Shown here: piece by piece, positions 3,932 to 31,173 of the stretch
Numbering within the stretch: the first letter of the stretch is position 1
Layout of the letters: each line of letters begins with the position of its first letter
Origin: a virus
Length of the DNA: 40,651 bases
Virus record (IMG/VR): IMGVR_UViG_3300038950_000002
Span: 1-40,651 of that record
Direction: 5' to 3' (one strand)
Position numbers and translations under genes: made by a program
Notes under the pieces: generated by a model
The model's input: the letters and a program-made list of their open reading frames with translations, nothing else
Told to the model about the DNA's origin: nothing
The model's database searches: none

Positions 3932-4414
3932 CTATTTTCCGAAAAACGTCGTGATCTGCAAGCTCCCAGTCAAATCTCGTGTGCCTGGCTTGTAGGCAAA
4001 TCCCAATGTCCCACCAACTCGTTCCGTGCCGCTATCCAATAGATTGCCCCACGGGAACAGTGTCAACGATCCGGTTATTACGGCATACCCGATAGCACCT
4101 TCATTTGTCTCAGATTTGATACCTGACAGGCTTCCGGTGACGGTGAAGAACTTCGACAAGATGTAGCCGTATGTTCCCTCAAGTCCGTAATCTTCGCCCG
4201 ATTCATTGATGGCTCGACTATACTGTGCCGATCCCACGACGTAAGCATTCTTGGTGATAAATGTCGCCACGCCGGTTTGTGCTACATTAGATACGTTTCC
4301 ATCCATGTCCATGCTGAAGCCCGCAGAACTAAAGTTGAACACGTTCTGAGCCAGCCCTATCGGGCACAGCATCAGAACCAAACAGATTGCGATTAGTAGA
4401 TTTTTCGGTTTCAT
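3932..4414 (-). CDS. Exported beta-rich protein, last late gene
   Basis: A 160-residue protein whose start ATG overlaps the RyR-gene stop (ATGA), with the SD AAGGAGA. Residues 1-22 (MKPKNLLIAICLVLMLCPIG then LA-Q) form a clear Sec signal peptide with likely cleavage after LAQ or LA. The mature part alternates polar and hydrophobic residues with Gly-rich turns (YVVGSAQYS, LTLFPWGNLL, VGGTLGFAYK) and ends in an aromatic residue near the C-terminus (TFFGK). This is the look of a small outer-membrane beta barrel or a secreted beta protein. No family is recognised. A surface or superinfection role is a guess. Confidence 0.65.
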   Translation of the reverse strand: MKPKNLLIAICLVLMLCPIGLAQNVFNFSSAGFSMDMDGNVSNVAQTGVATFITKNAYVVGSAQYSRAINESGEDYGLEGTYGYILSKFFTVTGSLSGIKSETNEGAIGYAVITGSLTLFPWGNLLDSGTERVGGTLGFAYKPGTRDLTGSLQITTFFGK

Positions 4415-4788
4415 CTTGTCTCTCCTTCTTCCTGATCGCCGTCTACTTGGTCTCTCAGGATATTTACAATACCAAGAAACAGACTGTCTTTTACTTTTTG
4501 CTCACTCGGCAGATCACCGTACGGCACCATGCAGGGGTGCTCCAATTTCTGGACATCCTTGATTTCGCCGTACTTCCAGCCTTCCGCCTCTTTGGTCTTC
4601 AGCCATTCCTTGTGGCTATCTTCCGGTGTGGCATTAGGGTTAGCCAGATGAAACCGGACTCCTTCAACAGCACTCTTCTTCTGCCATTCGGGAGCTACTT
4701 CCCACAGGGTTTGAGTGCAGTCCCCCAAGCTCTCGCAATAGATGCGGTTTGCCTCGTGACAAATTTCCGCGATTTGTGCGGGTATCAT
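4411..4788 (-). CDS. RyR-domain protein
   Basis: A 125-residue protein. Residues about 29-108 match the ryanodine-receptor repeat (RyR, PF02026) pattern: a WEVAPEWQKKSAVEGVRFHL helix, TPEDSHKEWLKTKEAEGW, the YGEIKDVQKLEHPCMVPY block and a final helix after LPSEQKVKD. RyR proteins occur in many phages and bacteria, where their role is unsettled. Links to nucleotide-derived ligand binding have been proposed for related proteins. It sits between the lysis genes and the last exported protein, with ATGA-type overlaps on both sides. Confidence 0.8.
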   Translation of the reverse strand: MIPAQIAEICHEANRIYCESLGDCTQTLWEVAPEWQKKSAVEGVRFHLANPNATPEDSHKEWLKTKEAEGWKYGEIKDVQKLEHPCMVPYGDLPSEQKVKDSLFLGIVNILRDQVDGDQEEGETR

Positions 4789-5297
4789 TCTGCGTCCTTT
4801 CCTATGATAGTGATTGCGTTGTCACTCGGTAGCGGTGTCAGCGTAGCTATCGGCATACTTGCTGAACCATTGATCCGAACGCCCATTTGCGTGTCTGGCT
4901 TTACGTTATCCCATGAGGGCGGTGGCGGCCCGAACTGAATCTCGCCGTCCTCAATCTGTTTCCAATGACCATCTGCCATCACAGTCGTCAACACACCCAG
5001 GCCAGCCCGACATTCCGTGATCTCACTATTGACAATCAGCTTGAAGTAGGCATAGCCCTGACTGTCATAGCGTTCGGTCACGATTCTCACGTAAGGATAT
5101 GCGGAGCACTGATACACCTTGCCAGATAAGTCCGGTGCTGTTACCCGGTCACAGTTGCCGATAAACGTAGCTGAGAGAGCCATCAGGACTGCCACTACTG
5201 CGATCAGCAGAAACCAGTTGCGCCGACTTGCCGGACGTAACCGCTTGCGTTCCCTGAGTGCCCACTGAGCGTCTTGTGAGAGATTTTGGTTGTTCAT
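4785..5297 (-). CDS. Membrane-anchored periplasmic protein, possible spanin-like
   Basis: A 170-residue protein. The SD AAAGGAAAG precedes the ATG at 5297. A basic N-terminus (RERKRLRPASRRN) is followed by one membrane segment at about residues 27-46 (WFLLIAVVAVLMALSATFIG), then about 120 soluble residues with Cys residues and a Pro-rich stretch FGPPPPSW. The N-in/C-out topology and the position after two holin-like genes would suit a spanin or lysis accessory protein, but the C-terminal domain is not the usual coiled coil, so the function stays open. Confidence 0.6.
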   Translation of the reverse strand: MNNQNLSQDAQWALRERKRLRPASRRNWFLLIAVVAVLMALSATFIGNCDRVTAPDLSGKVYQCSAYPYVRIVTERYDSQGYAYFKLIVNSEITECRAGLGVLTTVMADGHWKQIEDGEIQFGPPPPSWDNVKPDTQMGVRINGSASMPIATLTPLPSDNAITIIGKDAE

Positions 5298-5298
5298 A

Positions 5299-5520
5299 CT
5301 ACTTTCCTTTCACCATCTCGTTGAATTTCTTCCGATCAACCCCGGCTGCCACTGCAAAGAGGGCTATCAGGCTGCCTACCGTTGCCTCCACAAAGACCGT
5401 CACCTTCTCGCCCAGGGCTATGACCATAATGGCTAAAAGGCCACAGACACAGGCAGAGAAGGCAACAGCCTGCCAGCCTTTGCTGGCAAAAGCCTTGTGT
5501 AGCAAATTCAGGTCAAGCAT
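5299..5520 (-). CDS. Small two-pass membrane protein, holin-like
   Basis: A 73-residue protein starting MLDLNLLHKAFASKGWQAVA. Two hydrophobic helices (about 18-36 and 43-60) and a basic tail DRKKFNEMVKGK fit a class II holin or antiholin. It overlaps the previous holin-like gene by 8 bp and lies just after the endolysin. The SD is weak (AAGAAAG), which suggests coupling. Confidence 0.6.
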   Translation of the reverse strand: MLDLNLLHKAFASKGWQAVAFSACVCGLLAIMVIALGEKVTVFVEATVGSLIALFAVAAGVDRKKFNEMVKGK

Positions 5521-5701
5521 CTTTCTTCATCTTGTGCTCGACCACATTAGCCGCAGTGAACGCGCCGACAATGGTGGGGAGTACCCACTTCATCATAGCC
5601 GACACTTCCTCGGACGTTAGCGGCCCCCATGTGGCTATGACCCCGACCACTATCAGGGCAACCACACTGACGATCAGTTTCCGGTTTCCTTCAATCTTCA
5701 T
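5513..5701 (-). CDS. Small two-pass membrane protein, holin-like
   Basis: A 62-residue protein starting MKIEGNRKLIVSVVALIVVG. The ATG at 5701 is preceded by a near-perfect SD, AGGAGGT, so the upstream in-frame ATG at 5716 is not needed. There are two helices (about 9-24 and 37-53) with a charged tail VEHKMKKDA. With the neighbouring 73-residue protein it could form a holin/antiholin pair for the M15 endolysin. Confidence 0.6.
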   Translation of the reverse strand: MKIEGNRKLIVSVVALIVVGVIATWGPLTSEEVSAMMKWVLPTIVGAFTAANVVEHKMKKDA

Positions 5702-5712
5702 ACTACCTCCTG

Positions 5713-5790
5713 TCATGTCTCAGAGGCATCCCAAGCAGACTCTCGCTGGCAGGGCGGCTCGACGAAAATCCTATCTTCAGAATGCCTCAT
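5713..5790 (-). CDS. Possible 25-residue peptide
   Basis: A short frame (MRHSEDRIFVEPPCQRESAW then DASET) fills the gap between endolysin and holin-like gene. AGAGGTAG lies seven bases before its ATG, and its stop is just before the next SD. It is too short to judge; it may only carry ribosomes to the next gene. Confidence 0.3.
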   Translation of the reverse strand: MRHSEDRIFVEPPCQRESAWDASET

Positions 5791-5802
5791 ACATCTACCT
5801 CT

Positions 5803-6225
5803 TCAAATTAGCTCAAAATGATAAGCGTCAAAAATGTGAGCTGGCATAAAATCTGGCCCGTATCTCACATATATCTTCAAATGCTCCGCTATCTGCAAGA
5901 ATCTGCCGGCCATGCGCCCGATCTGGAGCATATCATCCCAGAGACATTCCCGTTTGCTTGCCGACCATAGCACAAGATCAACAGCCTCAGAGCGTCCAAC
6001 CAACTCTCCCGTCTCAGGATCAGGAGCTTCTACATTGTGATTGCTCTCTGGCCAATGACACATAGATCGTCCCATATCAAACATTAACTCTTGAGTATCT
6101 TTGTCCCTGAACCCGCACACTACATGGACATCTTCCCACTTGATAAGCTCCCTGCAAATCCTTATCAAATTAGGGTGGCAAGTTGCAAGCCGCGATTCTG
6201 ATACTTCACCGTATATATAACCCAT
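5803..6225 (-). CDS. Endolysin, M15-type peptidoglycan peptidase
   Basis: A 140-residue protein. The ATG at 6225 has AGAGGTAG upstream; longer in-frame starts have no SD and overlap the previous gene. The opening YGEVSESRLATCHPNLIRIC is typical of phage L-Ala-D-Glu/VanY-like M15 endolysins. Zinc ligands fit: H63 in ESNHNVE, D83 in SEAVDLVLW and H136 in DAYHFEL, with E138 next to it. An unusual 13-residue insertion (PDPETGELVGR) sits between the first His and the Asp. It cuts peptide cross-links of peptidoglycan at lysis. No signal peptide, so it would need the adjacent holins. This is odd in a phage whose neighbours nearly all carry signal peptides. Confidence 0.8.
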   Translation of the reverse strand: MGYIYGEVSESRLATCHPNLIRICRELIKWEDVHVVCGFRDKDTQELMFDMGRSMCHWPESNHNVEAPDPETGELVGRSEAVDLVLWSASKRECLWDDMLQIGRMAGRFLQIAEHLKIYVRYGPDFMPAHIFDAYHFELI

Positions 6226-6227
6226 AA

Positions 6228-6638
6228 CTACCTCTTGAAATTCTCCAGTATATCCTCGAGCGAGATCGAAGCCGAATCCGGCACATAGCCATTGAAACTC
6301 TTGCTGATTGTGTACTTTGGTCCTTGCTTCGTCTTGATCTCGAACGTGTAACTCGAAGTGGTGTCCATCACGGCATTTGGCACGAGCCACAGATATGCTT
6401 TGCCGTCAGCATCGGTATGCTCAATCGCTTTCGAGGGTAGTATCAACGTATCACCTACCATCGTGGTATCTTCCGAGATATTCAACTCAGCCGAGAAGAT
6501 AGCCCCGGCCAATGCGCCCTGCTCGACGCTGTGGATCTGCACATAGACAGAACATTGCGAGGCCGCCTGAAGCTGTGCAATGAAGAGGGTTGATAGTATG
6601 GTAAGACAGGCGACCCCGACTACTATGAATCTATACAT
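6228..6638 (-). CDS. Exported fibre-accessory protein, paralogue of the preceding fibre C-terminus
   Basis: A 136-residue protein with a Sec-type signal peptide (about residues 1-25, ending QLQAAS). Residues 28-136 match the C-terminal 100 residues of the protein at 6639-8621: both begin CSVY, both have a beta core with a PNA-x-x-DT segment, and both end GYVPDSA or VYVPDSA then (S/T)-x-x-x-x-DI/DL and NF-(K/N)-R. The domain has the look of a transthyretin-like or Ig-like beta sandwich. It probably arose by duplication and may form a tip or cap on the fibre. Confidence 0.65.
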   Translation of the reverse strand: MYRFIVVGVACLTILSTLFIAQLQAASQCSVYVQIHSVEQGALAGAIFSAELNISEDTTMVGDTLILPSKAIEHTDADGKAYLWLVPNAVMDTTSSYTFEIKTKQGPKYTISKSFNGYVPDSASISLEDILENFKR

Positions 6639-8621
6639 CTACTTTCCCTTCCTATTGAAGTTCTTCACCAAATCTATGAATTTCACTGTCGCCGAATCCG
6701 GTACGTACACATCGAAGTGACTCAGTATCGGCATTCTCTTGTGGTGACGGATAATATCGACACTGTAACATGAGGCCGTGTCGAGCAGGGCGTTCGGTAT
6801 CACGTTGATTGACCAGTACCCATTTTGATTTGACTCGGTAATCGTCCTGCCTTTCAAATAGGTCACATTGTCATAGTACAGGGTATCCTGATCGGAAGTC
6901 AACTCAAAAATGATTGTCGCCCCGGCCACTGAGTCAGATTCCACGTCGTACAGCCAGCCATACACTGAGCAGGCTTCAGCCGATACAGGTGCCCCTGGAC
7001 TCCACTGAGTACCCCAGAGTGTGTCTGTGTCCGTCCCTGCTCCCTTTACAATCGAGTCTTGTGTGAAACTCCACCCCGCTGCACTTGTAAGCATCAACAA
7101 CTCATCACCTTCTGACATTCCAAATACGGCAAGTCCCGATCCGTCCGTCAGAGCATAATACCTCGAACCTGAAGCGTCGTATTCCGTGTTGACGGTAATC
7201 ATAATGTCATTGATTGCTGTCGAGTCGTCAGTGTTCAATGCGTAGACATGAAGGGGATCTGTGCCGCCGCCCGTACAAGCACCCTCAGCATTAGCAGAAT
7301 CCGCGAATCCAGTCGTTTCTGTGGACTTGTCGAGGGTGCCAGTGATATTGTCGAAATCAGGCCGGATAGCGACAGTGCTGCCATCAATCACTTTACCGTC
7401 AGGATTGTAGGCTGCATTGAGAGCAGTGCTCCAAACATATATCATATTTGTTAATCCGAGTTCTGTGGCATACGCCAATGTGGTTGTCGTGTCATCAATA
7501 ACATTTTGCTTGATCTCACCAACAGTCAATACACCTGCCTCGGCTCCTGCTTGTGCCGAATCTGCCAACCCAAGACCGAACAGCTTTGCATGGATCACAC
7601 CTGCCGAATCTAATAAACTATCCACCTGCGCTTGTGACGGCGCATTAGCCGACAGTGCTTCTACGGTATCTTTGAGACTGTCAACTTGTGCATGTTCGGC
7701 ACATTGCACTCTGTTCGTGTCCACGGGCACATACTGGCCGAGGATCATAAACTCCAACCCGTCAGGCGGAATGACATCCTCTGTGCTGTAGTCATAAGTG
7801 GGTGCTCCGTTATAGATTGCACACTTCAGAGGCGCATTTATTTCCACCCAGGGGCTATCATCTGAGACATCCACAAATCGTCGCACCTGTGGCATGATCG
7901 TTGTATCGCCATTCTCATAATAGGTCAGGTATTCATCCCCTCCCGCATTGAACTCATAGAAGATGACAAGCTGATCTATCCAGTTATCGTTACCGTAATT
8001 CTGTAGAGTTGAGCCAACTTTGAACTTTGTTGTCGTATTCCAGCTATCACCGGCAGTAACGACATTGGACTTGACCGGAGCAAGCGCAGCCAGTATCTCA
8101 CGCGCCCTGGCGTTTGTGGAGTGCAAGCTGATCCATTCGTCCCATACGTTGTCGGCGATATTAGCCTCAACAGCGAGAGCGGAGACGTTAGCCTTGAATT
8201 CATCCTCATTGCTACCATCAATAAATTCAGCATATACACTGGCAGGAATTCCAGTCGTATCAGCAACTTCAGCCCATGCGTTGTTCGTATCTGCCAGCGT
8301 GTCCCATGCGGTAAACGTGAAGGTATGATCCAACCTTACACTCTCGCTGTTGTCCACAAACTGCATCCAAATCAGATAATCGCCGGCTTCAGCCACAGTG
8401 CTGTCGAATTGATATGTGCTGGCTGTTCCCGAAAGAGGCGTAGTCAGAACATGAGTGACTGAGGAATCCCCACCGTACCACCATTTGACATAGACGGTAT
8501 CAAGAGCCGTTGCCGTACCGTCCAGATTGTACGGTTCGGTCGGATCAAATCGGTAGTATGCCGCCTTCAAAGGCACCGGCAACAGCGTCAGAATCAGGAC
8601 TATGAGGATGAGGCGTTTCAC
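6639..8621 (-). CDS. Large exported fibre-like protein
   Basis: A 660-residue protein. The GTG start at 8621 overlaps the upstream stop as GTGA, with GGAGG upstream; the longer frame lacks this. Residues 1-20 (MKRLILIVLILTLLPVPLKA) are a Sec signal peptide. The rest is Asp/Ser/Thr-rich beta protein with a coiled stretch near the middle (QVDSLKDTVEAL, QVDSLLDSAGV) and a C-terminal beta-sandwich domain shared with the next gene. Size, composition and position suggest a tail fibre or receptor-binding protein. No enzyme motif is seen. The signal peptide is not expected for a cytoplasmically assembled virion protein. Confidence 0.65.
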   Translation of the reverse strand: MKRLILIVLILTLLPVPLKAAYYRFDPTEPYNLDGTATALDTVYVKWWYGGDSSVTHVLTTPLSGTASTYQFDSTVAEAGDYLIWMQFVDNSESVRLDHTFTFTAWDTLADTNNAWAEVADTTGIPASVYAEFIDGSNEDEFKANVSALAVEANIADNVWDEWISLHSTNARAREILAALAPVKSNVVTAGDSWNTTTKFKVGSTLQNYGNDNWIDQLVIFYEFNAGGDEYLTYYENGDTTIMPQVRRFVDVSDDSPWVEINAPLKCAIYNGAPTYDYSTEDVIPPDGLEFMILGQYVPVDTNRVQCAEHAQVDSLKDTVEALSANAPSQAQVDSLLDSAGVIHAKLFGLGLADSAQAGAEAGVLTVGEIKQNVIDDTTTTLAYATELGLTNMIYVWSTALNAAYNPDGKVIDGSTVAIRPDFDNITGTLDKSTETTGFADSANAEGACTGGGTDPLHVYALNTDDSTAINDIMITVNTEYDASGSRYYALTDGSGLAVFGMSEGDELLMLTSAAGWSFTQDSIVKGAGTDTDTLWGTQWSPGAPVSAEACSVYGWLYDVESDSVAGATIIFELTSDQDTLYYDNVTYLKGRTITESNQNGYWSINVIPNALLDTASCYSVDIIRHHKRMPILSHFDVYVPDSATVKFIDLVKNFNRKGK

Positions 8622-8989
8622 TCTGTCGAATCCTCCGGCCACGGTTGTTGAGATACTTTTCCGAAGCGAGTGCCGTGGCAATTATGTTCATAGGTCGCTA
8701 CCGGAATACAGCTATCCATAACCACCTGTGTGCTGTCGGTATAGTCAAAATAGACATCCACCGTATGATAGATCATCGGTGATTGCCCATCCTGAAATAT
8801 GAACTCCAGCAGAAATATGACATCATCCATATCGATATTGCCCGACCCATTAGCGTCGCCGACAAGCACAGAGTCGGCAAGCGGCAACCATTCGGTGTGA
8901 GTAGTGTCTCTGGTTTCAACCCAAACAGTATCGGCCGCCAGACACGAGGTTCCAATCAGGAACATCAAGATGATTGTTAAGTGTTTCAT
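8618..8989 (-). CDS. Exported protein with dockerin-like calcium-binding motif
   Basis: A 123-residue protein. A Sec signal peptide (MKHLTIILMFLIGTSCLAA) ends near residue 19. Residues 44-71 (GDANGSGNIDMDDVIFLLEF then IFQDGQSP) match one dockerin type I-like loop-helix: D45, N47, S49, N51 and D56 are in calcium-ligand positions. Only one of the usual two repeats is clear. Such single repeats are frequent in secreted proteins of Zixibacteria-like and other FCB-related bacteria. In the fibre operon it could dock another exported partner by calcium-dependent binding. The loop is clear; cohesin partnership is a guess. Confidence 0.65.
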   Translation of the reverse strand: MKHLTIILMFLIGTSCLAADTVWVETRDTTHTEWLPLADSVLVGDANGSGNIDMDDVIFLLEFIFQDGQSPMIYHTVDVYFDYTDSTQVVMDSCIPVATYEHNCHGTRFGKVSQQPWPEDSTE

Positions 8990-8998
8990 TATATCTCC

Positions 8999-10162
8999 TT
9001 AGTCTATCGTATAGGTAATTCGCACACCCACTTGAACTATATCCGCATCCGGTTCTGCGTTGAACCGTATGTAGATGCACTTGTTTGCAGCTACGGTGGC
9101 ATCGTCAAAACCGGAAGCAATTGCCGTTGTGCCGTTGGTCGTGTTCATCTCATCTATCACCACTCGATTAGCGTTGCCAATAAAGGCATCAGCCCACATA
9201 AGATCGAAGTCCAGTTCCGTATCAGGGTCAGCATCACAGGTCACGTCAATTCGCGTAACTGTTATAGCCGCTGCGCTTCTTGTGTCAACCAGCACCAACA
9301 TTGAATCGGCAGACCAGAGACCGTTCGGATTATATATTGTGGCGAGATACCGCGAGTCTGTCTCCAATTCGTCCACGTCATCAGTAGCAGCATTCACCTT
9401 ATTCGCCCATGAAGTCAGCGAATCTGTGGCTGCGTTCACCTCGTTTGCCCACGATGTAAGTGAGTCCTTTGCCTCATTCACAAGATTGCCCCATGCTGTC
9501 ACAGAATCCCAAGGTTCGCTATCAACCACGAAATCAATGTCATTGGTAGCATCCTCATAGGTAACTGAGATGCGGGTTTCAGTACCTCCGAGCATGCCGC
9601 CGACAAAATCCTCAACCTCTTCTTCGGATAGCTGAGTATTGTTATCCGCGATAAAAGCCGCCCAATTAGCTTGCAGCGAGTCATTTATAGCTGCTCGATA
9701 GGCTGTCACTGTATCATTATTATCTGAGATAAAAGCCGCCCAATTTGCCTGAAGTGAATCGTTTATCGCTCCCCTTACCGCCGTTGTTGAGTCCATCAAA
9801 TCGTAGAGAATCTTCGTGGTGTCTCCGTAGACATAGAGGCTGTCCCACCATTTGATCGCTGAACCACCGGCTACGGCTGCGAGATAAAGCGAATCGGCAT
9901 CCCAATCGTAACAGACAAACCAGCCGTCCATTCCTGAATATCGGGAATTGACCAACCTGCGAGCGTCTATTATGCCATCATCGTCCATGTCAAAGCAACT
10001 GTCATTAGAGCCGATACCGACATTTGTAATATCTACCACTATGTCGAAGCAGTCACCACCCACACCATCATCACAGTTTGGTGCGGCATAAGCAGAGATT
10101 GCTACTTGCGCTTCAGTCATCACGGGACATAAGAGAATTAACAATATGATGAACTTCTTCAT
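8999..10162 (-). CDS. Exported fibre-like protein with internal repeats
   Basis: A 387-residue protein. The ATG at 10162 overlaps the previous stop (ATGA). Residues 1-18 (MKKFIILLILLCPVMTEA) are a Sec signal peptide. A 26-residue repeat occurs twice (AINDSLQANWAAFI core), then a block SEEEVEDFVGGMLGGTETRI with SVTYEDATNDIDFVVD. I know that block as a recurrent trimerising element of phage tail fibres. It is followed by a 14-15-residue repeat (DSLTSWANEVNAAT type, about three copies) and a C-terminal beta domain. This is the strongest fibre signature in the cluster. Confidence 0.7.
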   Translation of the reverse strand: MKKFIILLILLCPVMTEAQVAISAYAAPNCDDGVGGDCFDIVVDITNVGIGSNDSCFDMDDDGIIDARRLVNSRYSGMDGWFVCYDWDADSLYLAAVAGGSAIKWWDSLYVYGDTTKILYDLMDSTTAVRGAINDSLQANWAAFISDNNDTVTAYRAAINDSLQANWAAFIADNNTQLSEEEVEDFVGGMLGGTETRISVTYEDATNDIDFVVDSEPWDSVTAWGNLVNEAKDSLTSWANEVNAATDSLTSWANKVNAATDDVDELETDSRYLATIYNPNGLWSADSMLVLVDTRSAAAITVTRIDVTCDADPDTELDFDLMWADAFIGNANRVVIDEMNTTNGTTAIASGFDDATVAANKCIYIRFNAEPDADIVQVGVRITYTID

Positions 10163-11418
10163 AATCCACGCCCCGTCGTCATATTGCAACCGCCTGGACA
10201 AAGGTTCGCATTCTGCGAAGTGGTCATACGGTAATCCTCAGTCCAGCCGTTGCTATTTGTAACCGAGATCGTCTGAGTCGTGCGAAAACCACCGGGCAAC
10301 GCACCGATCTTGAACTCCAGATCATCATCGGGATCAACACGTACAGGCCATGCAAACATCACGTACTCGCCCGGCCCTGCCGTTATAGGCCATACGCCAA
10401 CCTCGTTGTTGTTGATCGTCGAATCGTCGGCTGCGTGAATATCAGCCTCATCCCATGCACTTGAGTCAGTTTCGGTCGTTACACCATAGTGAATCCAGTT
10501 GATCGTGCCACCACTTGTATAGGTCGTCAACTGGTCATTACCGAGATTGGTGACTGTGGACGCCCAAACGTCATAGTTTTCGGAATAGCCCAGATCATTC
10601 TCAATACTTATAACTTCATGCGCGTCAAGCATCGCGCAAGTGAATGAGTTCCACCGAAAGTCACTGTCGCCGTCATCCTCATAATCATCGCCTCCGTCAA
10701 GTTGCGTCAGTGTTGTCGGATAGGCAAAAACGACATATTCACCGACACCAGCATTGATGTTCCACGTTTGAGTGTGATCCGTAGAACGAGTTGAATCCAG
10801 CGTATGAATATCAGCATCGGCAAAACTACTGCCTATATCGTCATTCCCGTAATATAGCCAGTTGAGAAAAAGCACCGATTCCGTGTCTTGATCGTCCTCG
10901 TCTGCTGTCGCAGCATTGAGCGTAAAGGTCACTGTCACTGAGCTACCTGACTTCGTTGGATAATCAAGCGAATCGGTATTGACCGTCGGCCCTTCACAAC
11001 TGCCGGTCATAGAAAGCGAATCCCACGGAGTTATCCCCGTACCGGAGACAGCAACTTTGCATGATACCGGCGGGCCATTGTTGTATGTCGCTGTGAAACT
11101 CGCATCACTGGCCGCTAACCACGCCTTGTCATCCGGCCCGATAGTGTGACTATTGCTCTGATTGTCGGCGAATGTGGCAATCACAAAGACCAGGCTGGTA
11201 TCATAAGGTGCCCAAATCGTCTCCGATCCCGTCCACATCAGAACGTCGTACTTGTCCCTGACAGTGCTGTCCACGTCGATAATCCGTGTGTTGGAGGTCG
11301 AATCTCTGACAACGGTCATAACCTCGGCAGAGTCCAGACCGCCACCTGTCACCACGTTGACAGCCAATGCCTGACCGCTCAAGCATAGACACACCAGTAT
11401 TGTCAACCATTTAGTCAA
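10159..11418 (-). CDS. Exported beta-rich fibre protein with duplicated domain
   Basis: A 419-residue protein. The start is a TTG at 11418 (AGGTGA six bases upstream), needed to include the signal peptide MTKWLTILVCLCLSGQALA. Two copies of a domain about 110 residues long are visible: each has an NW(L/I)(Y/H)YG strand, a DADIH/EADIH segment, then GVGEYVVFAYP or GPGEYVMFAWP, and a later SENYDVWAS or TEDYRMTTS strand. Such repeats occur in phage fibre and tip proteins. No enzyme motif is seen. It overlaps the upstream gene by 8 bp. Confidence 0.65.
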   Translation of the reverse strand: MTKWLTILVCLCLSGQALAVNVVTGGGLDSAEVMTVVRDSTSNTRIIDVDSTVRDKYDVLMWTGSETIWAPYDTSLVFVIATFADNQSNSHTIGPDDKAWLAASDASFTATYNNGPPVSCKVAVSGTGITPWDSLSMTGSCEGPTVNTDSLDYPTKSGSSVTVTFTLNAATADEDDQDTESVLFLNWLYYGNDDIGSSFADADIHTLDSTRSTDHTQTWNINAGVGEYVVFAYPTTLTQLDGGDDYEDDGDSDFRWNSFTCAMLDAHEVISIENDLGYSENYDVWASTVTNLGNDQLTTYTSGGTINWIHYGVTTETDSSAWDEADIHAADDSTINNNEVGVWPITAGPGEYVMFAWPVRVDPDDDLEFKIGALPGGFRTTQTISVTNSNGWTEDYRMTTSQNANLCPGGCNMTTGRGL

Positions 11419-13136: not shown

Positions 13137-13472
13137 CTATGGGGAGTCGCCGTTTTTCATGTTACGTATCTCTCTTAAAAGTTCTTTATGTCTGAGCGAA
13201 TCGACTACAGCCTTAACCTGCGCCTGTGTCAATAGCGAGTCCACGCTCTTCTGGACACACTGAACCGCTTGGGTGTTTTTGACGATAGCCTTCTGAATCT
13301 CCGGGTGTGCCGTAGCTGAGTCGTCGTGATGCTTGATAGCGATAGGAACAGAGTCCTTTACACTGTCCACCTGCACCAAGCTTTGTGCGATACTGATACC
13401 GACGCCAACAGCGATCACCGCTATTATCAGCACAAGATGCAGCGTTTTCAGACCTGAGTTTTTCGTGACCAC
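13137..13472 (-). CDS. Membrane-anchored coiled-coil protein
   Basis: A 111-residue protein. The start is GTG at 13472, behind the strong SD AGGAGG. One membrane segment lies at about residues 11-29 (LHLVLIIAVIAVGVGISIA), followed by a coiled coil with QVDSVKDSV, SVDSLLTQ and VVDSLRHKELLREI. N-in/C-out topology. It resembles i-spanins in shape, but it is far from the lysis genes. The QVDSL-type segments also occur in the 660-residue fibre protein. Function is unknown. Confidence 0.6.
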   Translation of the reverse strand: MVTKNSGLKTLHLVLIIAVIAVGVGISIAQSLVQVDSVKDSVPIAIKHHDDSATAHPEIQKAIVKNTQAVQCVQKSVDSLLTQAQVKAVVDSLRHKELLREIRNMKNGDSP

Positions 13473-13481
13473 TTAGCCTCC

Positions 13482-20386: not shown

Positions 20387-20995
20387 TCAGTAAAGTTTAA
20401 TGATTGTTAGTCCCACACCATTTGCTCGTGTTCTGAACGCCGAAGAACCGGACAGATTCGTGACAAACACGGCAAGACTATCCCCTTCAGATAGCGGCCA
20501 TATAACAACTGCCGACTGTGACGCACCACCGGTTGTAATCCCAGTTATCATTGAAGCCCCTGGTATATTTTCCCATGCTGAACCATACCACCGCAAAGAA
20601 CTTCTTACTCCAGTGGTCGCGGTTGCAGCATAAATCGCAATCTGATACGAAATTTGATAAGTCCCGGCTTCATTGACCGCCACCGCGTAATCATCCGCGG
20701 CGTGTGAGTAGATGCTGCTTTCCACCACTTCTTTGTCGAGATTGATATATGCGCTGTCGCTGGCAGCAATCAGTTGCAGTCCCGTGCTATCAACCGCCTG
20801 AAACACCGATCTGTTCACATGCTCGAAGTAGGCCAGCCATCGCTGTATCTCCCGGAAGTTGCGACCGGAAGCCGGGTCATCCACTCGCTGATGAGGCAAA
20901 GACTGGCAGTAGACGAAAGCCGCCGCAAACGGCAGCAACAGCAGGCTGATTATGGTCACACCCAACGCGAACAGAAGCAATCGCTTACCTGTCAT
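20387..20995 (-). CDS. Membrane-anchored C1q/TNF-like jelly-roll protein
   Basis: A 202-residue protein. The ATG at 20995 (start MTGKRLLLFALGVTIISLLL) has AAGGAAGAG upstream and is preferred to a longer start inside the nozzle gene. A hydrophobic signal or anchor covers about residues 4-28. After a short helix (REIQRWLAYFEHV), the C-terminal 130 residues (EAGTYQISYQIAIYAAT, LSEGDSLAVFVTN, GVGLTIIKLY) have the strand pattern of C1q-like trimeric domains found in phage fibres and bacterial surface proteins. It may be a membrane-tethered trimer. Exact role unknown. Confidence 0.6.
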   Translation of the reverse strand: MTGKRLLLFALGVTIISLLLLPFAAAFVYCQSLPHQRVDDPASGRNFREIQRWLAYFEHVNRSVFQAVDSTGLQLIAASDSAYINLDKEVVESSIYSHAADDYAVAVNEAGTYQISYQIAIYAATATTGVRSSLRWYGSAWENIPGASMITGITTGGASQSAVVIWPLSEGDSLAVFVTNLSGSSAFRTRANGVGLTIIKLY

Positions 20996-23357: not shown

Positions 23358-24025
23358 TTTCCAGGTTCCTCAGTGGTTATGACTGTAGCACTCGGCGAAA
23401 CATCTTGTCTCTTGCGCTTGATCGCCTCCAGATATTTCGTCAGCATAGCCGTTGCGTCCTGATCTCGCTGGTTTGCATCATAGTAGAGAAAGGCGGCATA
23501 CTGCACAGCAAGCCATCTGTGGCTTATCTGCGGCAAATCGCATTCATCGGCAGCCGAAGTGATGTAGGACGGTTCAGCCTCATAGGTCACGATCATAGTA
23601 CAGGCTTGAGCCGTTCCTTCAGGATAAACAGTCAGCTTTTCCCCGTAGGTATAGAATGTCTGAGGGCAGCCGGTTTCATCACCAAGCTTGCCAATTTCAG
23701 ACGGAGGAACCTGAACCATGCCATATCTCATACCTTCACTCTTCAATTCAATATGATTTACGCCGCCGAGCAGGAAATCACTGTTTAGAGCATAATCGCT
23801 GTTGCCGTCCGAACTTACGATCGTATCTTTCTTCGGCAGACAGCGCAAATCCTCGGCAACCTGGTGCATGCCGGCGTTGACATAGAGCGTGGAGACAGAA
23901 TCGGCAATCGTGGCGTTGTTCACCATCGCATGAAATGCCGACTGCAAATCTTTCAAAGTGAGCATGTCGCCAGCCTGGGCAACAGATACCAGCAGTATCA
24001 GAGTCAGAAGAATTCTAATCGTCAT
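23354..24025 (-). CDS. Adaptor-like tail or neck protein with signal peptide
   Basis: A 223-residue protein. SD AGGAGG precedes the ATG at 24025. Residues 1-18 (MTIRILLTLILLVSVAQA) are a Sec signal peptide. The mature part (LSEG-like strands, KLTVYPEGTAQACTMIVTYE, then a helical end SHRWLAVQYAAFLYYDANQR with DQDATAMLTKYLEAIKRKRQ) resembles the beta-then-helix layout of phage tail-adaptor or neck proteins, and it follows the other adaptor directly with an 11-bp overlap. The combination of adaptor-like body and signal peptide is unusual. Confidence 0.55.
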   Translation of the reverse strand: MTIRILLTLILLVSVAQAGDMLTLKDLQSAFHAMVNNATIADSVSTLYVNAGMHQVAEDLRCLPKKDTIVSSDGNSDYALNSDFLLGGVNHIELKSEGMRYGMVQVPPSEIGKLGDETGCPQTFYTYGEKLTVYPEGTAQACTMIVTYEAEPSYITSAADECDLPQISHRWLAVQYAAFLYYDANQRDQDATAMLTKYLEAIKRKRQDVSPSATVITTEEPGN

Positions 24026-24713
24026 CGAATTCGCCTCCTATCTCAAGAGCTATCTCCATTTCGCTTTGTGGAGAGACATAGCCTGGAGTCCTCATTTGTC
24101 CGACACGCTTACGGCTCGGACTGTTAATCGCCAGCGCATCCTGTAACGCAATCCTGTAGACCTGCTGCTGATATGACCTGTATTTCATCGGCAGGGCATA
24201 GAGAAGAACGGCCTCCATGTAGACATCTGCGAAATTGTCAGGGATCAGATTCAGACGACTCAACTCCCACCCGAGCGTGTAAGTCACATCAACCGTATAA
24301 CCGGAGTCAGGCGGTGGGAAAATCGAAAAGTAGAGATACCCATTCTTGAAAAACAGTTTGTACCTCGTCGGCTTGGTAGTGGTCTCCGATGTCGGATACG
24401 GAAAGAGCTTGTCGAATGTCTCAGGCGTCTCTTCGATCATGTTAAAACCGTAATCACTCGACGTTAGCACTCTAATGCCGATTATGCCGTCTACACCCGC
24501 CTCTAACTTATCCTGAGTGCCATATTCGCATGTACTCGCTGTCAGCGTGATTTCTTTGTGTCTCTCCTTGAAATACCACGGTTCACGCCAGAACAGACCA
24601 CCACCCAACAGGGCAGCCGTTTTCATTACTCCGGCAGAGACAGCGGCATCAATCCCCAACAGTTTCAGATGCTCTTTGACGAACTCGTTGATTTCATTCT
24701 GACTTACAGACAT
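24015..24713 (-). CDS. Head-tail adaptor protein (gp4-like)
   Basis: A 232-residue protein. An N-terminal helix-rich part and a middle strand region (YKLFFKNGYLYFSIFPPPDS, YTVDVTYTLGW) are followed by PDNFADVYMEAVLLYALPMK and a helical tail. This agrees with phage head-tail adaptors of the P22 gp4/HK97 gp6 type and with the gene order portal, capsid, adaptor. There is no signal peptide here. It would sit on the portal ring and take the nozzle. Confidence 0.65.
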   Translation of the reverse strand: MSVSQNEINEFVKEHLKLLGIDAAVSAGVMKTAALLGGGLFWREPWYFKERHKEITLTASTCEYGTQDKLEAGVDGIIGIRVLTSSDYGFNMIEETPETFDKLFPYPTSETTTKPTRYKLFFKNGYLYFSIFPPPDSGYTVDVTYTLGWELSRLNLIPDNFADVYMEAVLLYALPMKYRSYQQQVYRIALQDALAINSPSRKRVGQMRTPGYVSPQSEMEIALEIGGEFDDD

Positions 24714-25136: not shown

Positions 25137-25146
25137 ATTGTTTCAG

Positions 25147-26370
25147 TTACGCCATCGCAGTTGCACCGCAAAGCAGTAACACCGAACCAAAGGCGTTGAC
25201 TGTCTTGACGGCATTGATGACCTTCCATCCAATAGTCTCGAACTGATCGAGCGGATCGCTCTTATCCGGGCCGGTCACAACGATGATGTGCTTGCCCTGA
25301 CCCTTCAGCGTCAACATGCGGATAGCATCCTTGCCAAAGATCGGCACGACATGCACCGCACCCGTTGCGCTGTACTGATAGGAGTTGATCGCGTGACGCC
25401 ACGGCTGAGTGGTCTGCACCCAACGTATGCCGTAAGCAGTACCCAATTCACCGTTGAGCAACCACTTCACGTCATCCTTGTACGTGGCGACGTTCTTCCA
25501 GTCCGTATCCTTGCGCAGATCGTATGCAACCATCGAATCGACTATACCGACAAAGTACCCATGATCCAACGGCTCGGCCTCATTATCCTGAAGCGTCGCC
25601 AGTGCCATGTTGATGTTGGTATAGCTGATTACGTCGGTTGCAGCGATGTCATGCACGGCAGCCATACGAACGGCATCCGCAGTCGTGATAGCAGCCGCTA
25701 AGGAGTCAGGATATTCCGAACCACCGGAGAACTTGGCTATGTCCTCATCAGCGTGACCACCGAGGCTGTAGACTTCAGTAGTCGCACTGTCCCCGACACA
25801 GAATCCGGCCAGGTAGTTCGGGCCGTCCGGATCGGTAAACACGCCATGAGCACCGTTCCAGTCGTCATTTGCGGCACAGACAATCCCTGTGGCGGTAAAC
25901 TCATCGGTTCCGCCGGTAGTTACCTGTCCCGAACCACTGAAATCGGTATCGAGGTCAGCCCTGATCGGCCAGCCTCCAGAGAGGCACGCTTGCGACATGG
26001 CCTTGATGTCAATCGACTCAGCGGCCTGTGTGCTGACGACCTCCCTGTATTTCTTCAAGCCGGGATCACGCCCGACCATCTTGAAAAACGTGCTCGGCTT
26101 GTACCACTCACCCAGAGTTTCAAGCGTCGCACGTATGTTGACAATGTACATGTTGCTTTCTGTACCGGAAGCTCCCTCAGTCAGATGCGCAGTCTTGGGA
26201 TCGCGCCGAGTGTACCGAATCATGTCGATCGTATCTCCTTCATGCTTCGGAAACGGCTCTTCGCTACAGACCTGCTTCATCTTGGTCTTCTTCTTTATCA
26301 GCTTCAGAAAGTCATTGTCGTATTTTAGCTGAACACCTTTCGATAAGGTTGAGGTGGTGTCTACAGACAC
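25147..26370 (-). CDS. Major capsid protein, N4-gp56-like family
   Basis: A 407-residue protein. The start is GTG at 26370 (MSVDTTSTLSKGVQLKYDND) with AGGTGA upstream. The N-terminal half fits the N4-gp56 capsid family: an FPKHEGDTIDMIRYTRR block, a strand region with NIRATLETLGEWYKPSTFF, and a helix carrying EVVSTQAAESIDIKAM. The size is that of a HK97-fold subunit. The scaffold lies immediately upstream and adaptors follow. The protein forms the icosahedral shell. There is no cleavage site or protease gene nearby. Confidence 0.75.
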   Translation of the reverse strand: MSVDTTSTLSKGVQLKYDNDFLKLIKKKTKMKQVCSEEPFPKHEGDTIDMIRYTRRDPKTAHLTEGASGTESNMYIVNIRATLETLGEWYKPSTFFKMVGRDPGLKKYREVVSTQAAESIDIKAMSQACLSGGWPIRADLDTDFSGSGQVTTGGTDEFTATGIVCAANDDWNGAHGVFTDPDGPNYLAGFCVGDSATTEVYSLGGHADEDIAKFSGGSEYPDSLAAAITTADAVRMAAVHDIAATDVISYTNINMALATLQDNEAEPLDHGYFVGIVDSMVAYDLRKDTDWKNVATYKDDVKWLLNGELGTAYGIRWVQTTQPWRHAINSYQYSATGAVHVVPIFGKDAIRMLTLKGQGKHIIVVTGPDKSDPLDQFETIGWKVINAVKTVNAFGSVLLLCGATAMA

Positions 26371-26394
26371 TTAGGATCACCTACTTTCTATCTA

Positions 26395-27258
26395 TCAGCG
26401 ACCCTCCTCCGCAGCTATTGCAGCATTGATTTCGGCGTCCGTTAGCTCTTCGCCTGCGTTAAATCTCTTCTGCAATTCATCAAGTGACGCCACGGGAGGA
26501 GCACCGCTTCTTCTTTTTCCGGTTTCCAGTCCGGCTCGACGTTTCGCCTCCGCCGCAGCCGCACCATCCTCAAACCCATCCTGCCGAACCTTAGTCGCGT
26601 TAAGACTTACCAGAGTGCGAGCATTTTCATACGAAGCACGGACATCATCAGCCGTTATGACCTGACCTGTGTTGCGCTTGAGTGCAATCACACGGTCATT
26701 CATCATGTGTGGCGTTAGCTGTGCCAGTTCGTTCTGGTCAACAGTTGTCATCCACTGAGTAATAGCCTGATTCTGTTGAAACATCTCCATCTTGCGCGCC
26801 TGCTCCGCCCGTTTGGCCTCGCGATCAGCCACACGTCTTTCGATGTAGGCATTCGGATCGGCCAACAGTTCATCGACCGCTGTGTCGTCAGCAGCCGGTG
26901 TGACATCGGGTGCGCCGTCAGGCGGAACAGTCTGTGGAAACGTCGGAGGCATTGCCCCTTCTGACGCTTTTTCCAGTCTGCTTGCAAGCTCTCGAAAACC
27001 TTTCATCTGCTGCATCGCTCGTCTCACGGATGCTTCAGGGTCATCGATCTTTGCAAAGTCCTGTTCCTCTAAACCGTACTCAGTAGCGTACTTCCTTAAA
27101 ACGCTCAGTGGTATTGAAGGATCGTCGGATGGCGGTGTCTTAGGGGTTTGTGGTTCCCCTTCGGCAGCCTCTTCGTCTGTCTGTTCTTGCGGCTCAAGCT
27201 CCTCTGAGGTCGTTTCCTCTTCGGTGTACTCAAGGTCGTCTTTTTCTTCTTCTGTCAT
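26395..27258 (-). CDS. Head scaffold protein
   Basis: A 287-residue protein. SD GAGGA precedes the ATG at 27258. The first 50 residues are extremely acidic (MTEEEKDDLEYTEEETTSEE). Residues about 60-100 and 150-240 are helical and Glu/Gln/Arg-rich, with a short basic C-terminal block (KRRAGLETGKRRSGAP) and a final helix ELQKRFNAGEELTDAEINAA. Acidic N-terminus, coiled core and a position just before the capsid gene fit a scaffold that is lost during maturation. Confidence 0.7.
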   Translation of the reverse strand: MTEEEKDDLEYTEEETTSEELEPQEQTDEEAAEGEPQTPKTPPSDDPSIPLSVLRKYATEYGLEEQDFAKIDDPEASVRRAMQQMKGFRELASRLEKASEGAMPPTFPQTVPPDGAPDVTPAADDTAVDELLADPNAYIERRVADREAKRAEQARKMEMFQQNQAITQWMTTVDQNELAQLTPHMMNDRVIALKRNTGQVITADDVRASYENARTLVSLNATKVRQDGFEDGAAAAEAKRRAGLETGKRRSGAPPVASLDELQKRFNAGEELTDAEINAAIAAEEGR

Positions 27259-27265
27259 TGTGTCC

Positions 27266-27538: not shown

Positions 27539-27933
27539 TTCTTTGGAACAGCCTTCACAGCCTTTTTCGTAATCCCGGCTATCTCAGCAAATTCCTTCGC
27601 TGTCACAATCTTGCAACCGTTGAATGGCACTGCATCAAAAACCTTGATGCGCCTAACTCGACCATCGGGGTCTTTCTTTTCGACTTTGTACCTGTCGGGA
27701 ATCCTGTGGACTTTCAGGCTGTCGACAATGACCTCGGGGAACTTGCCGTCCTTGTCTTTTCCCACGTAGACCACCATCGGGCGACCTTTCTTCATGTCCA
27801 GCTTTTCACCGAACGGCGGGTTTGGTTCATCGAGAACGAACTCACGATGTAACAACTTGAAATCACCGTAAACCCGGTTTGATTTCAAATCTACACCACC
27901 AACTACAAAGAATTGCTTGTGTTGGTCTCTCAT
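27535..27933 (-). CDS. Head-module protein of unknown function
   Basis: A 132-residue basic protein starting MRDQHKQFFVVGGVDLKSNR. A strong SD (AGGAGGT) and an ATGA overlap with the portal stop show coupling. The body alternates beta strands (RPMVVYVGKDKDGKFPEVIV, RRIKVFDAVPFNGCKIVTAK) and ends in a Lys-rich helix (EFAEIAGITKKAVKAVPKK). No family is recognised. Confidence 0.65.
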   Translation of the reverse strand: MRDQHKQFFVVGGVDLKSNRVYGDFKLLHREFVLDEPNPPFGEKLDMKKGRPMVVYVGKDKDGKFPEVIVDSLKVHRIPDRYKVEKKDPDGRVRRIKVFDAVPFNGCKIVTAKEFAEIAGITKKAVKAVPKK

Positions 27934-29879
27934 ACCTGACCTCCTACTTGAACTGCATTTCTATTATTTATACTCGATAGTAAATCTTGTGCGTTTGATA
28001 CCTGTGGCATGTTTGTCATTCCCCCACCTGCATTGGGAGCAGCAGCCGTTGGCGGAGGCAATCCCCTCTGTGCGTTAATCTGTGCCGTGTACATCTCAAG
28101 CTGCTCATAGTATTGGAGCTTCTGCTGCATCCACTGTAGCCTGTCCTGGATCATCTCTCTGTGCGGCAGGTTGAACTGATCAGTCAATGCAAGAAAAATC
28201 ATCGGTGTGAGCTGCTGCAACTGAGGATCGCCACGTACCACCTGCAACAACTGCATCAACTGCTGGATATTAGTGCTCTTGTCGACTTCCCTGCTCGAGC
28301 CAAGTGCAACAAAATGCACCTGCCCGGCAATGTCTTCCGGTGTGATCTTGCGCCAACCAATACCCTTCCGCCCAATGACTCTGACCACTTCAGCCTGATC
28401 CATGAATTGCAGGTTGATCTTCTGCATCTTGTCACAGAGCGGAATCAAGCCAGTATCTTCTATCTCTCGCAGCAGCAATTTGAACTTGGCCGACGCTTGC
28501 CGGAATGTCCGATCTACTGCTGTTGCAGTTTGAGATTCACTCGGCACCTGACCACGCATGAACTCAGTCCTGCCTGATGCCTCACCCGCCCAATCCTTGT
28601 ATGTGCCCATAGCGTTCCAGACGTCAGGAGCTACCGACTGCGGGTGGAGTTGCTTGAAATAGTTCTCCATGTTCTCACCATCTTTACGGCGTACATGGAT
28701 GATTTGACCTTTGCGATTGACCAACTCGCTTTGGTTTGGAATACCCCTTTCATCCACTAACCTCGGAGGATGCACCCCCTGATACAAAGCGTCGAGCATC
28801 GTGTTGTTCAGAGCATTGACACCGTGAATCATCGGATGCTGCTTCTCTATCGCTCCTATACCCCAGAATTCTCCCGGGATTCGGTTGATACGAGGACAGA
28901 TATAAGGTCCGTCCTGATCGTGGTAAGGAAGAGGTTCGTCGCGCAATACGATACCGTCCTCAGTAACCACGCAAACGCTATTGGCTCGCTTACCACTGTT
29001 GTCGATGTCATACATGCCGACCCACTCATAACACTCTATGCCCTTCTGTGTTGCTCCGTGACCTCCACCGCCACGAGCAAGCCTGCGTCGCTCTTTCTTC
29101 GGTTCGCTGTCAGTCTGTTCCTCTTCGTCCAGATTCGCATGATCCCAGTTGATATACCTCGTATTCTTGAACAACCCCTGGCGGGATCGTTCCTCAACCA
29201 TCTCCGGTGTCGCTATAAACCTGTGAATCTTCGGCAATGGCTCTTCCGGCTCCACGAGGTCGGGATGAGGAAAGAAATCGAAAATATCTACAGGCACAAG
29301 CGTCGGCCCTCGATACACCATCTTCTCAGACTCTATCTTGGCATAGCCTACCACAGCACCGAACATATCTCGGATTTCTTCCTTGTCCGTGAAAGTGCCC
29401 CACCGCTCGACATAGACGACCTTAGCCACAGAGGTTCCGAACATGACTGTCGTCTTGCTCAGATCACTCCACGCTGCCGACATCCCATCCACATAAGCCT
29501 GATGCAGAATCAAATCCTTGTTCGCCTCGGCCTGCATCTCGTCAGTGCCCTCGGTCGGCTGCGTATCAATCAACAAGCCATCAGAATTGACCGTGTTGGC
29601 CATTACATCCGCATGAATGCTGTCAACCGTATCGGAAGCCAAAGGCACAGGCACATTGGCCTGACCCTTCTTGCGCTTCTTCTTTACTTCGTTGTAATAG
29701 TGCGACAGGTAATCGGAAAACTTCTTGTGCTTGGGAATCGCCGCCTCTGCGAACAGAGCAAAGTCCGCCAGCACCATATCGCGGATGCGCTTCTCTCTCG
29801 GCGACATCGGATAAAATGTCAGACCCTTGCCTGAATCATCCCGATCCTTACTCTGTGAATTTAGCGGAGAATCGGCCAC
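27930..29879 (-). CDS. Portal protein
   Basis: A 649-residue protein. The GTG at 29879 is chosen because AAAGGA is seven bases upstream; a TTG two codons earlier (29885) has no spacer. The N-terminal third has the portal wing pattern (PMSPREKRIRDMVLADFALF, SDYLSHYYNEVKKKRKKGQA). The middle shows PYICPRINRIPGEFWGIGAI and NALNNTMLDALYQGVHPPRL, then a helical crown region with SESQTATAVDRTFRQASAKF. The C-terminus is Gln/Pro-rich. This fits the P22/N4-like portal group that forms the dodecameric DNA gate. It lies upstream of scaffold and capsid as expected. Confidence 0.8.
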   Translation of the reverse strand: MADSPLNSQSKDRDDSGKGLTFYPMSPREKRIRDMVLADFALFAEAAIPKHKKFSDYLSHYYNEVKKKRKKGQANVPVPLASDTVDSIHADVMANTVNSDGLLIDTQPTEGTDEMQAEANKDLILHQAYVDGMSAAWSDLSKTTVMFGTSVAKVVYVERWGTFTDKEEIRDMFGAVVGYAKIESEKMVYRGPTLVPVDIFDFFPHPDLVEPEEPLPKIHRFIATPEMVEERSRQGLFKNTRYINWDHANLDEEEQTDSEPKKERRRLARGGGGHGATQKGIECYEWVGMYDIDNSGKRANSVCVVTEDGIVLRDEPLPYHDQDGPYICPRINRIPGEFWGIGAIEKQHPMIHGVNALNNTMLDALYQGVHPPRLVDERGIPNQSELVNRKGQIIHVRRKDGENMENYFKQLHPQSVAPDVWNAMGTYKDWAGEASGRTEFMRGQVPSESQTATAVDRTFRQASAKFKLLLREIEDTGLIPLCDKMQKINLQFMDQAEVVRVIGRKGIGWRKITPEDIAGQVHFVALGSSREVDKSTNIQQLMQLLQVVRGDPQLQQLTPMIFLALTDQFNLPHREMIQDRLQWMQQKLQYYEQLEMYTAQINAQRGLPPPTAAAPNAGGGMTNMPQVSNAQDLLSSINNRNAVQVGGQV

Positions 29880-29881
29880 GA

Positions 29882-30445
29882 TCAATCCTTTCCGAATAAA
29901 GCCCCGCGGACAGCTATCTTTCGGTCGAATTCCTCTGTGTCATTCGTGATCGTATCACCGACGATAATCTCAACCTCAAACCTGTCCATGAATCCAAGCG
30001 AGTCGCTGTCGTAGTAATCAAAGAAGTTGTAGATTTTCTCTATCGCCCCGACCGCGCTATCATGCAGAGTACAATACAACGTGTCATCTGAACCGATATT
30101 GAAATGCACTCGCGTACTGCAACCTGCCGATGTCGCCGGTATTTTCAGGTAAAGCTTGAAGCCATCGAACTGCCATACGTCGAGAAAAGTAATCTCTCTT
30201 GATGCTATACCGTCAGACCGGACAAAACCCTTCATCGCCAACGTGTCCCAGTGATAGTCGTCTGCATGGACTATCTCGTTACCGGATGTGTTTGTGTCAC
30301 TGTGCCAGATCAATGTTTGCTGGTCCAGAGCACCCCACAATGGCAACCGCTTATTCTCAGCCGTCGCCCGATCATACTGCCCAAAGAGTACCAAGCCGAG
30401 TACCATTGCCAACATCACGACGCCAGCCAGTTTATCCTTGCGCAT
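29882..30445 (-). CDS. Exported protein between terminase and portal, unknown
   Basis: A 187-residue protein. SD AAGGAGG precedes the ATG at 30445, which overlaps the upstream stop (TGATG). A hydrophobic signal peptide spans residues about 7-22 with probable cleavage after RATA (MRKDKLAGVVMLAMVLGLVL). The mature part is beta-rich with Cys residues (GCSTRVHFNIGSDDTLYCTL) and Asp-rich loops. It resembles its neighbour in layout. Proteins of this type are not expected between terminase and portal. Confidence 0.6.
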   Translation of the reverse strand: MRKDKLAGVVMLAMVLGLVLFGQYDRATAENKRLPLWGALDQQTLIWHSDTNTSGNEIVHADDYHWDTLAMKGFVRSDGIASREITFLDVWQFDGFKLYLKIPATSAGCSTRVHFNIGSDDTLYCTLHDSAVGAIEKIYNFFDYYDSDSLGFMDRFEVEIIVGDTITNDTEEFDRKIAVRGALFGKD

Positions 30446-31173
30446 CAGTATTCCTCCTTGACGATCATGAAGGCGCGGAACTTCATAACCTGATCGTTAA
30501 CCTGGTCGAGTATCAATGCGCTGTCGCAGATCACGTACCGTAAGCGCAGCCAATCGAGGAACAGAGTAGAGTCAACATCGGAACCACCCTCAACGTCATG
30601 CTTCAGCGACAACACGAACAAACTATCCTCGGCTAAACTGCTATATGTGATCGTGTCAACATGAGCAGCACCAATACCACGCTCCTGTGTTGCTAAGGCT
30701 CTAAGCATAAAGAAATCGCCAGCATTACCCATCTTCGTGCCAAGCTCGGCTGTAACCTCTACCCTTGCCGTGTCAGTGTTGCCGTGAAGTGAATCCCAAT
30801 CAGCTATCCCATAGCCGAGCCACCCACCGTCGTAATCAAGGATGTGAAAGTAGAAATCCAGTGTATCGTAGAAAAGACCTGTACTATTGCCAGAACCGAG
30901 TGAATCTACGCCGTTAGTCGCAGAATCGCCATGCGCCGGATCGTATGTCCATGAGTAGATGCCCAAATTGCCCTTGCTGACAGGATGCACTTCGTTGTTG
31001 TCAGTCGGTTTCCACATGCTGTCTAAGGCACCACCGGTCTTACCTGTCACGGCCACGATCTCATACGGATAGAGCCGTGTTTTCTTCGCTGCATCCACCT
31101 CCGGCACATTCCACACGAGTACAGCCCCTATGCACAGCACCACGACTGCAATCCAAATCTGCCTTTTGCTCAT
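30445..31173 (-). CDS. Exported protein between terminase and portal, unknown
   Basis: A 242-residue protein. The ATG at 31173 follows GGAGGTTAGG directly after the terminase stop, and is preferred to a longer start inside the terminase gene. Signal peptide MSKRQIWIAVVVLCIGAVLV is followed by WNVPEVDAAKK with likely cleavage after VDA. The mature part is beta-rich (LDFYFHILDYDGGWLGYGIA, DTARVEVTAELGTKMGNAGD, SLFVLSLKHDVEGGSDVDST). Together with the next gene it forms an exported pair with similar architecture. A surface or head-decoration role is only a guess. Confidence 0.6.
   Translation of the reverse strand: MSKRQIWIAVVVLCIGAVLVWNVPEVDAAKKTRLYPYEIVAVTGKTGGALDSMWKPTDNNEVHPVSKGNLGIYSWTYDPAHGDSATNGVDSLGSGNSTGLFYDTLDFYFHILDYDGGWLGYGIADWDSLHGNTDTARVEVTAELGTKMGNAGDFFMLRALATQERGIGAAHVDTITYSSLAEDSLFVLSLKHDVEGGSDVDSTLFLDWLRLRYVICDSALILDQVNDQVMKFRAFMIVKEEY

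Follow-up and report, generated by a model that had tools for sequence, protein, structure and literature searches.

Signal peptide-type N-termini on the distal tail and fibre proteins of a putative short-tailed phage

The window analysed here, the 40,651-base IMG/VR virus record IMGVR_UViG_3300038950_000002, encodes a set of late proteins which begin with N-termini of the signal peptide (SP) type. These are carried by the second neck adaptor (adaptor 2), the tail nozzle, a knob protein and all six SP-type genes of the fibre module, whilst the large terminase subunit (terL), the portal, the scaffold, the major capsid protein (MCP), the first neck adaptor (adaptor 1) and four ejection-type proteins are without them. 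This division between the fibre module, adaptor 2, nozzle and knob on one side and the head, packaging and ejection proteins on the other is well supported by the sequences, and it fits either assembly in the periplasm or action at the cell surface. We suggest, with confidence a little below even both for this statement and for the explanation as a whole, that the virus is a short-tailed (podovirus-type) phage from a clade whose distal tail may be targeted to the Sec pathway.

A sequence-only reading of the window had proposed 12 SP proteins, all of which were recovered on the minus strand, together with single anchors at 13137-13472 and 4785-5297, which were likewise confirmed. Prediction relied on a heuristic for Sec signals cleaved by signal peptidase I (Sec/SPI; cut-off 5.5), calibrated on a 49-kb stretch of E. 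coli K-12 in which 9/9 known exported proteins were detected (scores 6.4-7.7); as three inner-membrane proteins of that stretch also scored, the heuristic cannot tell signal peptides from N-terminal anchors. All 12 proteins exceed the cut-off (6.2-9.3), so that the prospect of a predictor rejecting most of them was not borne out with this heuristic. Each has, at its extreme N-terminus, a positively charged n-region, a hydrophobic core of 8-18 residues and a cleavage-type motif with small residues at -3 and -1; it is very likely that the Sec signals are genuine. The mature chains hold no further membrane-like segment (maximum 19-aa hydropathy 1.28) and are net acidic in all cases; the four ejection-type proteins contain no cysteine and are mostly basic or neutral. 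Cysteine content was considered as proof of periplasmic folding and set aside as too weak, capsid and terminase also holding cysteines. With this heuristic, terL, the portal, the scaffold, the MCP, adaptor 1 and the four ejection-type proteins all gave no SP.

The number of SPs is far from that expected by chance: when the N-termini of 24 late proteins were shuffled, a mean of 0.3 and a maximum of 2 SPs were obtained, against the 12 observed. SP-scoring genes make up 12/41 in the window and 36/1273 in related phage loci (Fisher p = 5e-9), the latter being called genes of at least 100 aa, a comparison which is noisy because some of the background genes are spurious open frames. Annotated control phages are free of this problem, and their virion genes gave no SP with the heuristic in lambda (0/21), T7 (0/13) or SU10 (0/17), nor was any found among the annotated structural genes examined in phi38:1 and crAss001. 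The proposal that the 12 form one virion-region pattern holds for the fibre module and the tail proteins but fails for 3932-4414 (minus strand; score 8.0, no Pfam match). This small, presumably secreted protein is not part of the anomaly, because it is located after the lysis genes, in a Lom-like position, and resembles a small outer-membrane protein; its sequence pattern suggests a beta-barrel.

Two of the SP carriers are certain tail proteins. The first, at 23354-24025, has a cleavable-type SP (MTIRILLTLILLVSVAQA then GDM) and matches Pfam SU10_adaptor (PF24175, E 1.4e-14) from residue 23 onwards, as well as an adaptor profile (E 8.5e-13); the best PDB matches of its AlphaFold model (pLDDT 76) are the tail or portal-tail adaptors of cyanophage A4, Pa223, SU10, VP1 and N4. 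On these sequence and model comparisons, its assignment as a neck adaptor of the T7/SU10 type is regarded as certain. In SU10 the adaptor connects the portal with the nozzle and carries the long fibres (PMC9509320). The second, at 20985-23357, is matched by a profile of 87 relatives from which the query was left out (E 3e-34) and by PHROG 3287, and in the PDB its own alignment profile picks up tail tubular protein B (E 1.7e-10) as well as the nozzle gp16; by homology it is, again with certainty, the tail nozzle or tail tubular protein B. Among the window proteins searched, this SP carrier was the sole match to the nozzle profile. Its AlphaFold model (pLDDT 45) was unusable for a fold search.

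The homologous cores of the SP-bearing tail proteins start directly after the SP, which in the adaptor alignment appears as an N-terminal insertion of 18-20 residues. As none of the homologues score (0/41 for adaptor 2 and 0/87 for the nozzle), the SPs of these two proteins are a clean N-terminal addition. The homologues were found with alignments, single-protein IMG/VR scans with the nozzle, MCP and portal having returned no matches; nor did tblastn of the nozzle, adaptor 2 and the fibre F1 against 50,697 phage records.

The gene which follows the nozzle encodes a short fibre or knob protein (20387-20995) with the BclA_C domain (Pfam PF18573, E 1e-9) and an SP score of 9.25. The fibre module itself (13137-6228) opens with the small single-anchor protein at 13137-13472, followed by SP-bearing proteins at 11411-13120, which has a weak CBM96-like stretch (E 0.02), at 10159-11418, whose homologue in phage G006 (35% identity over 377 aa) lacks the SP, and at 8999-10162 (MKKFIILLILLCPVMTEA then Q). 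There follow a small SP protein at 8618-8989 and the fibre F1 at 6639-8621. The last member, at 6228-6638, is short, carries an SP and is akin to the C-terminal domain of F1 (F1 C-terminal profile, E 3.7e-7). It repeats that domain with 34% identity, as if the fibre tip had been duplicated and given an SP of its own. The protein at 8618-8989, which has no Pfam match, carries the dockerin-like EF motif GDANGSGNIDMDDVIFLLEFIF.

Conservation of the fibre SPs was seen in three sister phages, G008, G009 and G010, which were located via the capsid protein and share the gene order of the window. G008 comprises 45,201 bases, and its internal virion protein is 46% identical, over the aligned length, to the large SP-less counterpart at 13482-17126 in the window. 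In all three, SPs occur on the genes that separate the large internal virion protein from the endolysin, and over the four phages 15/16 fibre-module genes score, against 0/37 head, neck and ejection genes of the three sisters, in whose frames no hidden upstream SP was found. The F1 SP is kept in 4/4 phages, the orthology resting on the match of the G008-G010 C-terminal profile to 6639-8621 (E 2e-10), although the proteins of these phages are just ~20-37% identical. The SP-bearing G009 gene at 28771-29976, which occupies the same place as 11411-13120, has a clear CBM96 domain. A second family, beside terL or portal, has the SP in 3/3 members (L194, L115 and L099). For a fibre-like gene of L099 the called start was too late, and an upstream GTG start restores the SP. 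The G008 and G010 contigs are probably circular; those of their genes that run over the contig ends were each taken in two parts. An IMG/VR scan with the internal virion protein returned G008 alone again, and relatives with the Bacillus/gut type of MCP (A1) were discarded, having little in common with the window beyond the capsid protein. The homologues are thus divided: the F1 family retains the SP in its sister orthologues, whereas those of the nozzle and adaptor 2 and one fibre homologue lack the segment. The suggestion of independent selection for export finds support in the case of the fibre module.

Beyond the sisters, SP-bearing fibre-like genes occur in four other uncultivated lineages: five in a row in G001/L135, three in G016/L126, interspersed with an ordinary adaptor and nozzle, three in G002/L102, and one, adjoining the stabilization protein, in MW202801. 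The last of these (L006, MW202801.1, 27247-28632) encodes a strong-SP fibre-like protein; the genome, which is complete, is that of an uncultivated podovirus from Manatee Spring. Most portal relatives are without such SP-bearing fibre-like genes (18/755 genes score in L113-L177), and long apparent SP matches in L055 and L072 proved to be antisense frames of other genes. The trait thus comes and goes from one lineage to the next, but among the sisters it is steady.

The mechanism we prefer, at slightly less than an even chance and on sequence grounds, is the export of tail parts followed by their joining to filled heads at lysis. Sec would export the tail proteins and signal peptidase would trim them, after which they would fold and wait in the periplasm or another extra-cytoplasmic space. 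In the cytoplasm, DNA-filled heads would form, closed by the portal and by adaptor 1 as the putative head closure. Once holins had breached the inner membrane the exported parts and the heads could meet and, just before lysis, the fibres, here also adaptor 2 and the nozzle, would be added to the heads; as the sister phages appear to export fibres only, fibre addition alone would take place there. A fuller and more tentative scheme, to which we give distinctly less weight than an even chance, is one of two-compartment assembly, in which heads and ejection proteins would be cytoplasmic, the nozzle, distal neck ring and fibres would be Sec-exported and periplasm-folded, and the halves would be united once lysis opened the inner membrane, with a graded series running from fibre-only export in the sisters to nearly the whole tail in this phage. 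Several points weigh against export and late joining. The predictor is a home-made heuristic. The SPs of adaptor 2 and the nozzle are seen in this genome only, with no counterpart among the homologues. The usual course in podoviruses is stepwise tail assembly on the portal, whose clips the T7/SU10-type adaptor contacts, so that assembly across a membrane would need an extra step.

The main rival, which we consider unlikely but by no means negligible, is that the SP proteins are exported and act on or outside the infected cell, as adhesins or carbohydrate-binding proteins which would mask receptors, prevent superinfection, bind debris or stick cells together. The CBM96 domain of the G009 protein, weak CBM or Ig-like matches in others and the dockerin-like motif of one small protein are in keeping with such a role, and phages do export proteins of this kind (lambda Lom and Bor). 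However, whilst this would cover the fibre module, it leaves the SPs of the neck adaptor and of the sole recognised nozzle unexplained. The module also stands at the expected position of fibres, after the internal virion protein and before the endolysin, the window shows no further apparent fibre genes, and the SP-less G006 homologue of 10159-11418 sits among fibre-like genes.

It is rather improbable that the N-termini are uncleaved signal anchors, whether tethering tail proteins in the inner membrane with heads docking there, or serving as a membrane-active tip during infection. The proteins at 30445-31173, 29882-30445, 20387-20995 and 20985-23357, whose hydrophobic cores are long and whose cleavage regions are imperfect, and the anchors at 13137-13472 and 4785-5297 would be consistent with this. 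The least ideal c-regions among the 12 belong to the SP-like protein between terminase and portal (30445-31173; score 6.7, Shine-Dalgarno (SD) sequence GGAGG), whose c-region holds charges and ends in VDA, and to its neighbour (29882-30445), which scores with a RATA or LFG ending and overlaps the start of the portal gene by 4 bases; both could be anchors rather than signal peptides, and neither found a family match in Pfam or PHROG searches. However, anchoring suits few members, as in most of them the core is short and the ending cleanly of the AXA type (AQA, ALA, LQA, TEA, LKA), so that they resemble the E. coli calibration SPs. Slightly less probable again is that the SPs have no function for the virion, being relics of captured host secreted genes or hydrophobic docking peptides which resemble SPs. 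Some domains are shared with secreted bacterial proteins, and SPs have been gained in some lineages and are absent from others; yet in the adaptor and the nozzle it is phage proteins which have acquired SPs, the F1 SP has been kept despite the divergence between the phages, and the head genes have none. Finally, a gene-calling error, with true starts downstream of the hydrophobic stretch, would accommodate two TTG starts, one GTG start and the lack of an SD at 8999-10162, but is very improbable, since most SP starts have an AGGA/GGAGG-type SD or a 1-11 base overlap with the previous gene, no start downstream of the hydrophobic stretches has a comparable SD, as would be needed under the sequence-only reading's own proviso on alternative starts, and the same pattern recurs with ATG starts in the three sister phages. 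The overlaps with phage genes place the SP genes in the same operon.

Tailed phages are taught as cytoplasmic assemblers. The window shares with the SU10/T7-type short tail the adaptor and nozzle homologues, the gene order and the ejection proteins in the head (PMC9509320), but the virion genes checked in that type have no SP, whereas here adaptor 2, the nozzle and the fibres do. Filamentous phages offer a precedent for SP-type signals on virion proteins, as their coat proteins pVIII and pIII have Sec-type signals and wait in the membrane, outside the cytoplasm, until they join the DNA. However, those phages extrude through the envelope, whereas the present phage is tailed, has holin-like and endolysin-like genes and packages its heads in the cytoplasm; a filamentous-type membrane-staged virion, with single-stranded DNA, extrusion and no head packaging genes, was rejected given the terminase, portal, major capsid and endolysin-like genes. 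SP-endolysins are known in tailed phages (e.g., fOg44, cited in PMC8878798) and are, like lambda Lom and Bor, Sec-exported tailed-phage proteins as proposed here, but these are proteins of lysis or lysogenic conversion, one or two per phage, and not tail modules. Among five rumen phages, the Bacteroides phages phiBrb01 and phiBrb02 had two and one SPs and the other three had none (PMC5723332); in those two genomes the SPs are not tied to tail proteins. In the openly licensed literature we found no paper that describes SPs as a regular feature of tail proteins, although a subscription paper could be missed, and to that extent the claim that so many signals in a tailed phage are undescribed stands.

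The genes of the window run on the minus strand, with a replication-type block ahead of terL. The order runs from terL (31175-32668; PHROG 2, E 7e-19) to the portal (27930-29885; PHROG 1216, E 6.5e-39), an acidic protein which is scaffold-like in composition and in its place before the MCP (26395-27258), the MCP (25147-26370; PHROG 1357, E 2.9e-35), adaptor 1 (24015-24713; adaptor profile, E 5.6e-7), adaptor 2, the nozzle and the BclA-type knob. Downstream lie four internal-virion-type proteins, namely a Pro/Gly-rich internal virion-like protein, so placed by its position (19519-20376), a putative ejection or internal virion protein (17912-19510), a putative basic internal virion protein (17128-17910) and the large internal virion protein, and then the fibre module and the lysis genes. 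The latter begin with a probable M15-peptidase-like endolysin, identified by sequence motif, which has no SP and whose exact start is uncertain (5803-6240); it matches a peptidase-like gene located after the fibres in G008 (E 7.5e-13). Two small membrane proteins which may be holins (5513-5716 and 5299-5520) and the single-anchor protein at 4785-5297, perhaps spanin-like, follow it. A GTDB scan gave three distant portal matches and no host was found.

Outside the virion genes, a DNA methyltransferase is apparently divided between two frames that overlap (36957-37520 and 37426-37761), next to an intact gene of related type at 39082-39783, and a protein near the contig end (40175-40555) has Cys/Leu-rich repeats, CTGLTALPELPVCKHLYC. 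In the relatives L194 (8406-8885), L195 (1847-4585) and L188 (4413-10266), glycosyltransferase-, methyltransferase- and sugar-epimerase-like genes lie in or adjoin the head gene block. The 273-kb record named Microcystis phage MaAM05 (MW495066.1, of which L089 is the stretch 194655-236061) looks like a piece of bacterial chromosome (aspS, proS, lepA, ftsH, purB and tRNA), with a small podovirus-type module inside it at L089:18681-28498.

If a clade of tailed phages exports its fibres, and one member also its nozzle and a neck ring, the assembly of virions can extend over more than one compartment, and receptor-binding proteins could exploit periplasmic folding and disulphides. The absence of signal peptides has been used as support for the phage origin of receptor-type proteins (PMC6199706); were the present reading true, the rule that a signal peptide marks a protein as not being a phage structural one would fail as a means of sorting phage from bacterial genes. 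SP-bearing tail genes are a simple genomic mark to seek in viromes, and they carry the testable prediction of trimmed N-termini in virions.

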